Translations under genes and position numbers: made by a program | Assembly: GCA_903893815.1 (NCBI GenBank) | Contig: CAITNS010000070.1 | Location: 62,001-126,000, forward strand | DNA length: 64,000 nt | DNA from: an uncultured Bacteroidota bacterium | Lineage (GTDB): Bacteria > Bacteroidota > Bacteroidia > B-17B0 > Aurantibacillaceae | Direction: 5' to 3' | Part shown: piece after piece, positions 19,801 through 54,693 of the stretch | Numbering within the stretch: the stretch's first letter is position 1 | Layout of the letters: each line of letters begins with the position of its first letter | The notes under the pieces: model-generated | What the model was told of the DNA's origin: nothing | What the model saw: the letters and a program-made list of their open reading frames with translations, nothing else | Databases searched by the model: none

Positions 19801-20108
19801 AATTACGAGTTGACAGAGACATGAGCTACGTCCACATGAAAGATATGCGCGCTTCTGGCTTTGAGCCAACCAACGTGATGAGTGGTTATAAATACCAAGA
19901 TGGATTAGGTTATTATGAAAGCACCAGAGATGCGGCGACCAACTTCTTCTTCTCATACTTAAATAAAGGTACTTACGTTTTTGAATATCCTTTGGTTGTT
20001 AATCATTATGGAGATTTCAGTAATGGCATTACGACTATTCAATGTATGTATTCTCCTGAATTTACCAGTCATAGCGAAGGCATCAGAGTGAAGGTGATGA
20101 AGCAATAG
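13869..20108 (+). CDS. Bacterial alpha-2-macroglobulin family protein with CxEQ thioester
   Basis: A 2,079-residue exported protein. The N-terminal hydrophobic segment (residues 7-28) acts as a signal or anchor; no lipobox is visible. About 600 residues of helical sequence precede the macroglobulin domains; MG2 begins near 616 with the landmark FTDRGIYRPGQTVYFKS. A glycine/alanine/lysine-rich linker near 1210-1290 precedes the A2M domain (FFPQLQTNYKGEVEIKF, then SLTKWKVMGF). The thioester domain contains CAEQ at residues 1531-1534, so the bait-trapping bond is retained. Bacterial A2Ms trap foreign proteases in the periplasm; in Proteobacteria they pair with penicillin-binding protein 1C, which is absent here. 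The C-terminal ~200 residues resemble a receptor-binding-like domain. Confidence 0.92.
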   Translation: MKLKKITNLALLCIASTLISLGYFSNVFTKPSETQLSFNKGDSYEKLWKRVDSCENKGLTESALKIVNGIYTKAKLDNNASQFVKAILHRMKFESYKEEFSLEKSIFKLRDEANEAKYPIKPVLQSLLADAFWQYFQNNRWKFYNRTTAVNFKNDDIETWDLKAITNAVISNYKASLTNVDSLKRTKVDIYDDIINKGTVECRAWRPTLYDFLAHRALGFLLSSEPDVSRPANRFTVNSDDYLKPYVDFVNLNITNPSDSLETKYYALNIMKDLTVFHKNDANPNALIDIELFRLDYIYANSQNTKKDTLYFNSLKALQTKFSSNERVTEIDFRIANWYLQKASKYKPLEGDSYKWYKKTAKEICESAIAKFPKSYGALECKNILNAIHSKSFNLIIEEVNEPNKPFRALVSSQNINKIYFKIVKTSSQELRELSRQKYGQELYAKYKTFPEVTTFSQDFINDGDYQNHLTEIKIPELAVGYYVILTSLTEDFKYANNITAYSTCIMSDMASTERRRDNGSYDFYTLHRQTGEALKNITAQVWYENYDYKVREYVVKKGPSYKTDDKGFLNISYETIENKSFFIEFINGSDHYFNNNSYYTYKPYEKNYNVVSSHIFTDRGIYRPGQTVYFKSIVLESINGKNHQLKTNYPVTVTFYDVNYQVVSSLPLVTNEFGTVSGSFTAPQNGLNGQMHITDGHGNAYISVEDYKRPKFETDFNPVKGSYKINDEVTVTGLAKAYAGNVIDGAKVAYRVLRNVNYPYWYWWYRPYNVGSTETEITNGEITSNDTGTYIIKFKALPDESVSKTSYATYNYKVTADVTDINGETHSTETNVTVGYQALQLAISSDAIVEVNNTKPIYITTNNLNGVKENTKGNFSIYKLKQPNKVFRSRLWQQADRHSLTKEDYYTTFPNDLYADENNKYKWEKETKVLDKAFDTGLKTDYDLSAEFKSFKPGVYVIEANCKDKFGEDIKAFSYITVFNKNNNEIPEQTADWFYYPKTMAEPGEKVNYILASGYSNVNYLFEFEHQGKLVSSKTEQASMKSNELQVEEIHRGNFAFHTSFIKNNRFYYHSSIVTVPYTNKKLDIEFETFRNKLLPGQAEEWKLILKDKKGEKAAAEMVATMYDASLDAFRANNWYFNILQSYYARLNWSSRISQTVNSNELNNISVDYYSLPTRQYDALNYFGLGFYNGYGEGTGSGPILSYAQSELYDRIEADEMAVGQTKSAAAPKLMKNKEEAEKKGNIISYQNARFLDGDDDKDATTISAGESMNGKGGREQTNKQADLSAVKARSNFNETAFFFPQLQTNYKGEVEIKFTVPESLTKWKVMGFAHTKDLKYGQFEKEVITQKELMVQPNAPRFFREGDNITFISKVSNLSVKDLTGNAELKLYDALTDKEISASIIEAMHGNFPTIGFREFTVKKGLSTSIEWNLHIPEGYSAIKYKVVAKANNFTDGEETAVPVLTNRMLVTESMPMPIRSNQTKEFNFTKFTNQNNNSTTLKNHSYTLEFTANPAWYAVQALPYLMEYPYECAEQTFARYYANSLATYVVNSKPKIKAIFDAWKTASPDAFLSNLEKNQELKAVVLEETPWVLQSKSESENKKRVGLLFDLNKMSNEQIQAFKKLKKKQSSNGGFVWFDGGPDDWYITQHIVTGFSHLDKLGVIKARENGEVWSMITQAVEYCDNRMREEYEWVKKYNPKYKTENHLSYMAIQYLYMRSNFQDINLDKRHKEHFDYYKKQEQTYWLQNSRYMQGMIALSLHRYKDATLPKDILKSLKENSINSEEMGMYWKENYGYSWYEAPIEMQTLMIEAFDEINNDTKSVDDLKTWLVKSKQTQHWGTTRSTTDAVYALLLKGTDWLATEPNLEITVGDIKLDPKNDKSLNSEPGTGYFKKVWSGSDIKPSSMGKIKVEKKDVGVSYGAMYWQYFEQLDKITPHETPLKLKKQLFLQKNTASGPVIEPITSATKLKLGDKIKVRIELRVDRDMSYVHMKDMRASGFEPTNVMSGYKYQDGLGYYESTRDAATNFFFSYLNKGTYVFEYPLVVNHYGDFSNGITTIQCMYSPEFTSHSEGIRVKVMKQ

Positions 20109-20121
20109 ACTTTAATAGTTT

Positions 20122-20313
20122 GGGCGTGCCCCTTTGGGTCGGGCTGTCGCTTCAATCTTTTGTTCGTGCCTCTCAAAAGGATTTTCGCTTGCATCCCTCA
20201 CGCAGTTTGCAAATTTAAGTCCGCGTTAGGGATTGAACGAAAATCCTTTTACGAAACGGAGTGGAGTAAAAGATTGCAGTGAAAGCCCGGCCCGCCAGCT
20301 GGCGGGAACGCCC
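20122..20313. repeat. Long nested palindromic intergenic element (copy 1)
   Basis: This fills most of the 312-bp gap after the alpha-2-macroglobulin gene. The ends are GGGCG and CGCCC, and three successive blocks are repeated inverted: CGGGCT with CAATCTTTT, then AAAAGGATTTTCG, then a CCCT-ACGC block. A perfect 16-bp palindrome, CCCGCCAGCTGGCGGG, lies at 20291-20306. The segment 20138-20204 is nearly identical to the reverse complement of 54581-54648. It is visibly richer in G+C than its surroundings, and no protein-coding frame is supported. Confidence 0.85.
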
Positions 20314-20362
20314 TAATTACAAGAATAACAATACTATATCTAAGACAACACTTACAAAAAAC

Positions 20363-20393
20363 AAAAAAGGAGATAAAATATATCTCCTTTTTT
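20363..20393. terminator. Bidirectional intrinsic terminator
   Basis: AAAAAAGGAGATA at 20363-20375 pairs with TATCTCCTTTTTT at 20381-20393 around a short A/T loop, with T-runs on both strands. It lies between the plus-strand alpha-2-macroglobulin gene and the minus-strand SirB1-type gene, whose 3' ends converge, so it can serve both. Confidence 0.85.
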
Positions 20394-20420
20394 GTGTAAT
20401 TAAAATAAACGTAACCAGTA

Positions 20421-21290
20421 CTACAAATTCTTCTCTAATTGTTTTAATTCTTGAACCTTTTCAGCATAACCCATTTTATCGAATGAATAAATTAAGTTAT
20501 TTAAAATTCGTTTGATGATATCTAAGTTAGAACAAGGTAAATAGTGTTTCGTTTCAGGCTCTACATTTAATTGTTTAATAAAAGCATCTACATCTCCTCT
20601 ATTAAATATCAAGCCTTTACTGAATGGATTTACATAAAATAAAATATTATCTGACAATGTTTTATCTGAAGGGTCAATTAAATTAGCGAAATCATTCACG
20701 TAAGCTAGTACAAAATGCTGTGGCAAGTTTACACCGTAAATAGGAATAGCGAGTTCTTTGCAAATTAAAGCGTAAACCACGCTTAACATCACAGGATTTC
20801 CTTTTTTAGTTTCAAGTACAACATTGATAAATGAGTTTTGAGGAGCGTGGTAGTTGGTGATGTTACCACCAAACTGATGCACTTCAAATAAAATATGATT
20901 GATGATTTTTACTTTTTCAATAGCCGTTAAATCATCATGTAACTCCAACCACACATCTTGCTTAATTTGATGCAGTTGTTTTTTTAATTTGTTTTCGTCT
21001 AAATCAGGATATTGGTAACGAGCTATAATAGCACATCCTTTAAATAAATCATCCTGTTCGTTTTCTGCCCAATGTTTTAATGCATTTTGTAAAGCCTTAA
21101 ATTGAATGGTATGAATAATCCCTTCAATGCGTTTTTGCATTAAGGCATCAAAGCTGTTTTCCCATGCCGTTTCTAAATGCGGAATAGCAGGCGGACCTAA
21201 TATTATAAACCTATTCTTTACCTCAGAATAAATTCCGTCATCCGGATCATCTAATAAAGTAATTAAGGCAATTACTTCTTTCAGGTTCAT
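20421..21290 (-). CDS. SirB1/transglutaminase-like protein (Transglut_core2)
   Basis: The open frame extends to a TTG at 21320, inside the terminator hairpin of the upstream gene. I prefer the ATG at 21290 (MNLKEVIALITLLDDPDDG), giving 289 residues; an ATG at 21311 is also possible. The DDPDDGIYSEV start and the core GNPVMLSVVYALICKEL followed by GVNLPQHFVLAYVN are diagnostic of the SirB1 (UPF0162) family, a transglutaminase-like fold in which the catalytic Cys is usually missing, as here. The biochemical role is not known. It ends at a bidirectional terminator. Confidence 0.82.
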   Translation of the reverse strand: MNLKEVIALITLLDDPDDGIYSEVKNRFIILGPPAIPHLETAWENSFDALMQKRIEGIIHTIQFKALQNALKHWAENEQDDLFKGCAIIARYQYPDLDENKLKKQLHQIKQDVWLELHDDLTAIEKVKIINHILFEVHQFGGNITNYHAPQNSFINVVLETKKGNPVMLSVVYALICKELAIPIYGVNLPQHFVLAYVNDFANLIDPSDKTLSDNILFYVNPFSKGLIFNRGDVDAFIKQLNVEPETKHYLPCSNLDIIKRILNNLIYSFDKMGYAEKVQELKQLEKNL

Positions 21291-54340: not shown

Positions 54341-54424
54341 AGGTTCTAATTTTTAGTGAAAATAGGGATTAATCTTTAGTTTGAAGGGACGGATTTCTTA
54401 AAAAATGTTACAGCTTAGGACGTG

Positions 54425-54693
54425 TCCGCCAGCTGGCGGATTGGGCTTTCGGCACTCGCTTTTTTATTTGCTCTTCGACTTCGCTCAGTGTCCAATAAAA
54501 AGAGCTCAAACAATGCCTCTATCCCTCACGCAAACTCTATTTCAAAAATCGAAGTTTAAGCTTCGACCTTACAGCAAGCTTGCGTGAGGGATGCAAGCGA
54601 AAATCCTTTTTATGAGTTACGAATAAAAGATTGAAGCGACAGCCCGACGGCGCCTTCTCTTTTGCGCCGGCACGCACAAAAAAGAAACGCCCT
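54425..54693. repeat. Long nested palindromic intergenic element (copy 2)
   Basis: This occupies most of the 366-bp gap between the DsbD-alpha gene and sppA. It has a perfect 16-bp palindrome, TCCGCCAGCTGGCGGA, at 54425-54440, then inverted blocks including CCCTCACGCAA against TTGCGTGAGGG and GAAGTTTAAGCTTC in the centre, and ends with CGCC...GGCG and CGCCC. Segment 54581-54648 is the reverse complement of 20138-20204 with about six differences. It contains CTTCGACTTCGCTCAG, the word also found in the REP-like repeat after ruvX. Short open frames inside it are not supported. Confidence 0.85.

Follow-up and report, generated by a model that had tools for sequence, protein, structure and literature searches.

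Flavo-1 repeats of Bacteroidota look more like small mobile DNA foldbacks than RNA genes

The window analyzed here is a 64,000-nt stretch of contig CAITNS010000070.1 from an uncultured Bacteroidota bacterium. It carries two long palindromic elements, each of which we read as a full dimer of a foldback repeat that is dispersed throughout Bacteroidota and has the Rfam motif Flavo-1 (RF01705) as its core. In our view, these repeats have more in common with a small mobile DNA foldback than with a gene for an RNA. We consider the element to be, quite probably, a non-autonomous foldback DNA element that resembles the REP doublets (REPIN/BIME), lies outside the described REP families and is moved by an enzyme. 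The Flavo-1 core was already known; new here are the closing stem and the side hairpin H1 of the unit, its tail-to-tail heterodimers and the empty sites in related species.

Two elements of inverted units and their match to Flavo-1

The first element (20119-20316) lies wholly inside the intergenic gap between two convergent genes, one for an alpha-2-macroglobulin (A2M; stop at 20108) and one transglutaminase-like (stop at 20421). No gene runs over it, as the first-pass annotation had noted. That annotation described a nested palindrome; the element is indeed palindromic, but it actually consists of two whole inverted units around a 19-nt centre, as delimited by matches to R1, a covariance model built from 32 hand-picked units. 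Unit 1, of the 'G-type' (20119..20203, plus strand, with Flavo-1 on the minus strand; 89.3 bits), is ordered as TTTGGGCGTG, the H1 hairpin CCCCTTTGGG, TCGGGCTGTCGCTTCAATC, a second hairpin in the context TTTT-H2-AAAA, and GGATTTTCGCTTGCATCCCTCACGC. The centre (20204..20222, no strand) compares with about 48 nt in most full elements. Unit 2, of the 'T-type' (20223..20316, minus strand, with Flavo-1 on the plus strand; 81.5 bits), has CCCGCCAGCTGGCGGG as its H1 at about 20291-20306. As RNA, 20118-20318 is predicted to fold with -95.7 kcal/mol (z = -8.2), a value equaled by none of 200 shuffles. The element sits between the A2M stop and an intrinsic-terminator-like hairpin (20361..20395, no strand), which we assign to the host because it is also present in relatives without the element.

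The second element (about 54418-54680) follows the same plan. The earlier reading had rightly recognized its similar core, but the element is a full dimer that includes a divergent left half. This half is an 'S-type' unit recognized by sequence (54418..54531, plus strand; GGGCTTTCGGCACTCGC...GCCTCTATCCCTCACGC, with TCCGCCAGCTGGCGGA as H1), followed by a centre of about 50 nt (54532..54581, no strand) and a 'G-type' unit as the right half (54582..54680, minus strand; R1 match of 92.0 bits). The pairing of an S-type with a G- or A-type unit is seen again at three further loci (L302, L310 and L334). Other details noted earlier for the two elements were borne out: 20138-20204 and the reverse complement of 54581-54648 agree at 63 positions of a 67/68-nt alignment that needs one gap (93% identity, E=2.8e-21 in a genome-wide search), both elements contain the palindrome GCCAGCTGGC (at 20294 and 54428), and both are richer in G+C (0.53 and 0.48) than the window (0.33). 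Among the copies at 54428 and 20294 in the window and at L029, L300 and L302, the hairpin CCGCCAGCTGGCGG serves as H1 in some and takes the place of a section of the unit stem in others, which looks like a modular exchange of hairpins.

An Rfam scan of the window at the gathering threshold gave no match. In E-value mode, the unit is recognized as Flavo-1, with three matches in the window: 20133-20215 (minus strand, 38.7 bits), 20214-20296 (plus strand, 39.8 bits) and 54573-54653 (plus strand, 38.4 bits), with E-values from 5e-5 to 1e-4. The default scan misses these copies because 38-40 bits fall below the Flavo-1 gathering score of 42 bits. In the whole genome there are 37 Flavo-1 matches, almost all at places found with R1, and 10 of them exceed the gathering score. 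The sub-threshold copies align end to end with the unit model R1, and because of this continuity the window copies are assigned to Flavo-1; judged by these model matches, the units belong to that family. The conserved core of the Rfam motif occupies the same places as our units, whereas the stretch matched by the Rfam model reaches neither H1 nor the closing stem's 5′ strand. Flavo-1 was listed by Weinberg et al. in 2010 as RNA 'y' and cis-regulatory 'n', from Bacteroidetes (PMC2864571). In the literature consulted it appears as single units; here the units are paired tail to tail into heterodimers that some species have and others lack.

Folding of the unit and pairing into dimers

A unit is about 85-115 nt long and forms a self-contained folded arm, with a closing stem that extends the Rfam model. 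This stem reads GCGTT/AACGC or GCGTG/CACGC. Its covariation was tested on independent data, namely named genomes of the phylum retrieved with a pattern that leaves the base concerned free. In about 75 units among the matches listed, GCGTT is paired with AACGC in 49 and GCGTG with CACGC in 22, against two exceptions, one per mismatched cell (P=2e-16), and a wobble in 1/75. Near the arm base, outside the stretch matched by the Rfam model, stands the hypervariable side hairpin H1. The arm continues up to H2 as a long stem, in which the mismatches GGGC/ATCCC, CGCT/CGCT and AATC-TTTT/AAAA-G-GATT are conserved. The unit edges GGGCG, TCGGGCT and CCCTMACGC are conserved, and H1 and H2 are hypervariable yet still palindromic. 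Given 25 full dimers, RNAalifold chose pairing within each unit, not from unit to unit, and found double changes at 27 of 42 consensus pairs. A unit variant occurs at L007, L024, L030 and L308, where the H2 stem AATCTTTT/AAAAGGATT is swapped on both sides for AAGTCCTC.../...GTGGGCTT.

In H1/H2 stems, about 1% of cells are wobble or A-C (about 2.5-2.8% under a second rule that takes the longest stems) vs 8.3% in strictly defined terminator hairpins, a comparison that depends on the choice of control hairpins; a looser terminator control admitted many spurious hairpins, leaving the strict control as the only yardstick. Such a low share is not what an RNA helix usually shows, and it agrees with palindromes being maintained at the DNA level. 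Quasipalindrome correction is an established mechanism that may, for example, keep H1 and H2 palindromic. The two strands are not equivalent: the Flavo-1 strand folds better by about 3 kcal/mol in 125 of 147 units (0 in the shuffled control), and the few wobbles in H1/H2 favor the same strand (11 vs 2). Because of this bias in folding, the units are likely under some strand-specific constraint, acting on RNA or on single-stranded DNA (ssDNA).

In this lineage, units are joined into strict dimers. All 14 two-unit clusters of the window's genome are arranged tail to tail ('+-'), and adjacent pairs across the genus comprise 51 tail-to-tail, one head-to-head ('-+') and five same-strand arrangements. 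The spacer between the two units has a median of 48 nt (mostly 43-53 nt in the genus), and the dimer ends are conserved as ATTTGGGCG...CGCCCAAAT. Linked markers in two places tell the G-, T- and A-types apart, and 38 of the 43 typed dimers combine different subtypes. A preference for heterodimers, likewise unexplained, has been reported for REPs (PMC3733652). The literature on flavobacterial palindromic repeats yielded no description of the dimer. Two complete Flavobacterium-like genomes, with 38 and 30 matches, have no two matches less than 250 nt apart, so the dimer looks like a feature of the lineage. The Flavo-1 cores of the complete Flavobacterium-like genome G201 (L402-L421) stand in other outer flanks (GGAGCTAATCCCGCT...ATCGGGGCTAGGGC) and occur as single units only, with H2 palindromes that are perfect and hypervariable.

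Distribution, empty sites and the search for a mobilizing enzyme

The first-pass annotation compared two copies and would have been refuted had these been the only ones, with no covariation; searching the genome with R1 revealed 46 units in 32 intergenic clusters, and the family shows covariation. The 21 clusters viewed with their flanks all lie between genes, which are tandem in nine cases, divergent in eight and convergent in four (from rough ORF calls), so that no orientation is preferred. Across 19 genomes of the genus, the number of units per genome ranges from 0 to 122. Copies in unrelated flanks reach 95-96% identity; none of the family copies exceeds 96%, and present activity is therefore not proven. 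A sequence-pattern scan over 84,980 species, with the closing-stem base left free, found Bacteroidota only among the matches listed (Flavobacteriales, Sphingobacteriales, Chitinophagales and Bacteroidales). An even sample of the phylum has the repeat in 28 of 198 genomes, and Flavo-1 matches were found in 0 of 14 control genomes. Plasmid and phage collections gave no match to the one Flavobacterium unit used as query.

Mobility was assessed by locating the genes that flank the genome's own copies in related species of the genus, where flanks have about 72-90% nucleotide identity. A relative was scored as having an empty site if it had both flanks, no more than 65 nt apart, and no unit between them. 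Such sites exist in at least one relative at 12 of the 21 own loci, whose gaps measure about 160-330 nt. At the A2M/transglutaminase gap (L001), 256-279 nt stand against 12-29 nt in four species, with the host terminator kept. Three more gaps behave alike, with 327-331 nt vs 5-11 nt in relatives (L019), about 191 nt vs 8-9 nt (L027) and 287 nt vs 25-27 nt (L024). At L001, one relative (G008) has an independent element that points the other way. By this comparison of aligned gaps, the element appears as a block that is present or absent between related species, with junctions that diverged intergenic DNA keeps from being read to the single base. The empty state is shared by several relatives, so that acquisition in the lineage leading to this genome would be the simpler reading. 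Comparing the flanks for target duplications, as had been proposed, returned none above shuffled pairing in 41 dimers (k = 2-9, several offsets).

Some of these intergenic sites hold other repeats. At L238, L275 and L252, other species have a different long inverted repeat (TTAACCACATAGAGACATAG...CTATGTGGTTAA) in the gap of the empty site, and at L240, L242 and L244 further dispersed hairpins (TTCGAGCGAAG..., TCATTGCGAACGAAGTGAAGCAATCTCA...) stand where the window's genome has a Flavo-1 unit or dimer. Intergenic sites thus appear to be common to several repeat families.

The first-pass annotation had offered a mobile repeat or a structured RNA, with a TnpA_REP as a possible partner. Both halves of that alternative find support, in the Flavo-1 motif on the one hand and in the empty sites and the 0-122 copies within the genus on the other, but the partner does not. 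Y1 transposase genes are absent from the element-rich genomes G006 (73 units, 99% complete) and G009 (27 units) and present in the element-poor G003 (three genes, four units). A unit lies within 1.5 kb of only 2 of the 54 Y1 loci, about the background density, and no correlation of Y1 genes with units was found across genomes. Phyletic pattern and neighborhood together led us to reject a RAYT/Y1 transposase as the probable driver. One locus (L119) was considered as an autonomous copy, as two inverted units bracket a 3-kb interval there, but this interval contains ordinary genes. Among the Y1 genes and the L119 interval, neither a mobilizing enzyme nor an autonomous copy was found. Elsewhere (L032 1270-1500; G000 contig C85), an IS200-like Y1 gene is immediately preceded by several small palindromes (TTGCTCCTAAAGGAGCAA, CCTCAGCGAGGCAA and CCCCAGCGGGGCGA). 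Gene and palindromes are a candidate RAYT/REP pair for Bacteroidota and are unrelated to the Flavo-1 element.

Mobile DNA, structured RNA or host palindrome

In the mechanism we propose, each unit is a folded arm held by its closing stem, GCGTG/CACGC in the form given here, as the covariation shows. A unit or dimer would be gained between genes as a discrete block, as the empty sites indicate. Single-stranded or cruciform DNA may fold into the arm or arms, a putative trans-acting nuclease or transposase would recognize the folded arm, and the block would enter A/T-rich DNA between genes without duplicating its target. Transposition would thus proceed via folded ssDNA, the dimer would function like a REP doublet (REPIN/BIME), and the RNA annotation would be a by-product of folding at the DNA level. 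Against a mobile-DNA reading stand the bias of folding and wobbles towards the Flavo-1 strand, a pattern expected if selection acts on one strand only, be it RNA or ssDNA, and the failure to find an enzyme, an autonomous copy, a target duplication, or a plasmid or phage match.

The bias in folding is also among the arguments for Flavo-1 as a functional structured RNA (an sRNA or borne on mRNAs, in line with its Rfam type) that was multiplied by ordinary duplication, its dimers being two divergent RNA genes. The existence of RF01705 and the compensatory changes in the stems point the same way, as do some 5′ transcribed regions of F. psychrophilum that overlap Flavo-1 matches, within data that are equivocal overall (PMC9723704). 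In that transcriptome, however, matches lie sense or antisense to transcripts indifferently and often outside them (PMC9723704). Copy number varies from 0 to 122 within a single genus, relatives have empty sites, neither a side of genes nor a strand is favored, and G-U pairs are very scarce; we regard this explanation as unlikely. A role as terminator, 3′-end stabilizer or chromosome-organizing palindrome, kept for host function instead of mobility, would suit own-genome copies that, where examined, are all intergenic, G+C-rich and stable. Divergent gaps are, however, occupied as often as others, the same gene pairs exist in related species without the element, and terminator-like hairpins rarely adjoin units, making this the least probable of the explanations considered. 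Their rarity near units also led us to reject insertion beside intrinsic terminators.

Strict-sense REPs moved by a RAYT/TnpA_REP (a Y1 HUH transposase) share more with the element: REPIN/BIME are likewise short, intergenic, multi-copy palindromic units in inverted dimers, with heterodimers preferred (PMC3733652) and without target duplication. By definition, however, a REP unit measures 20-40 bp and has GTAG or CGTC as a tag where its hairpin begins (PMC3733652), whereas the units here are two to three times longer (85-115 nt), comprise two hairpins and a closing stem, conserve neither tag and lack an association with RAYTs. Given G006 and G009 without Y1 genes and the near-chance proximity of Y1 loci to units, a strict REP identity seems improbable, even more so than the RNA gene. 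Bacterial MITEs resemble the element in being non-coding, a few hundred bp long and present or absent between species, and in having long inverted ends with conserved termini (here inverted units, with the ends ATTTGGGCG/CGCCCAAAT). In contrast to MITEs, neither a target duplication nor, with L119 examined, a parent transposon was found here, and units also occur singly.

The fullest version of the mobile-DNA reading is one that we put forward tentatively, as somewhat less than an even prospect: that Flavo-1 is a phylum-wide, RAYT-independent foldback mobile DNA, whose units in one lineage are obligately joined as tail-to-tail heterodimers, and that an undescribed enzyme moves it by recognizing a single strand in its folded form. 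Flavo-1 has been listed for more than 10 years among the abundant orphan 'sRNA' families of Rfam, and a transcriptome study could not explain its positions (PMC9723704). Our results point to a DNA foldback in dispersed copies, add the closing stem and H1 to its structure and reveal a dimeric form. If this is true, the sRNA annotation used throughout Bacteroidota would be misleading, and there would be a new mobilizing enzyme to be found.
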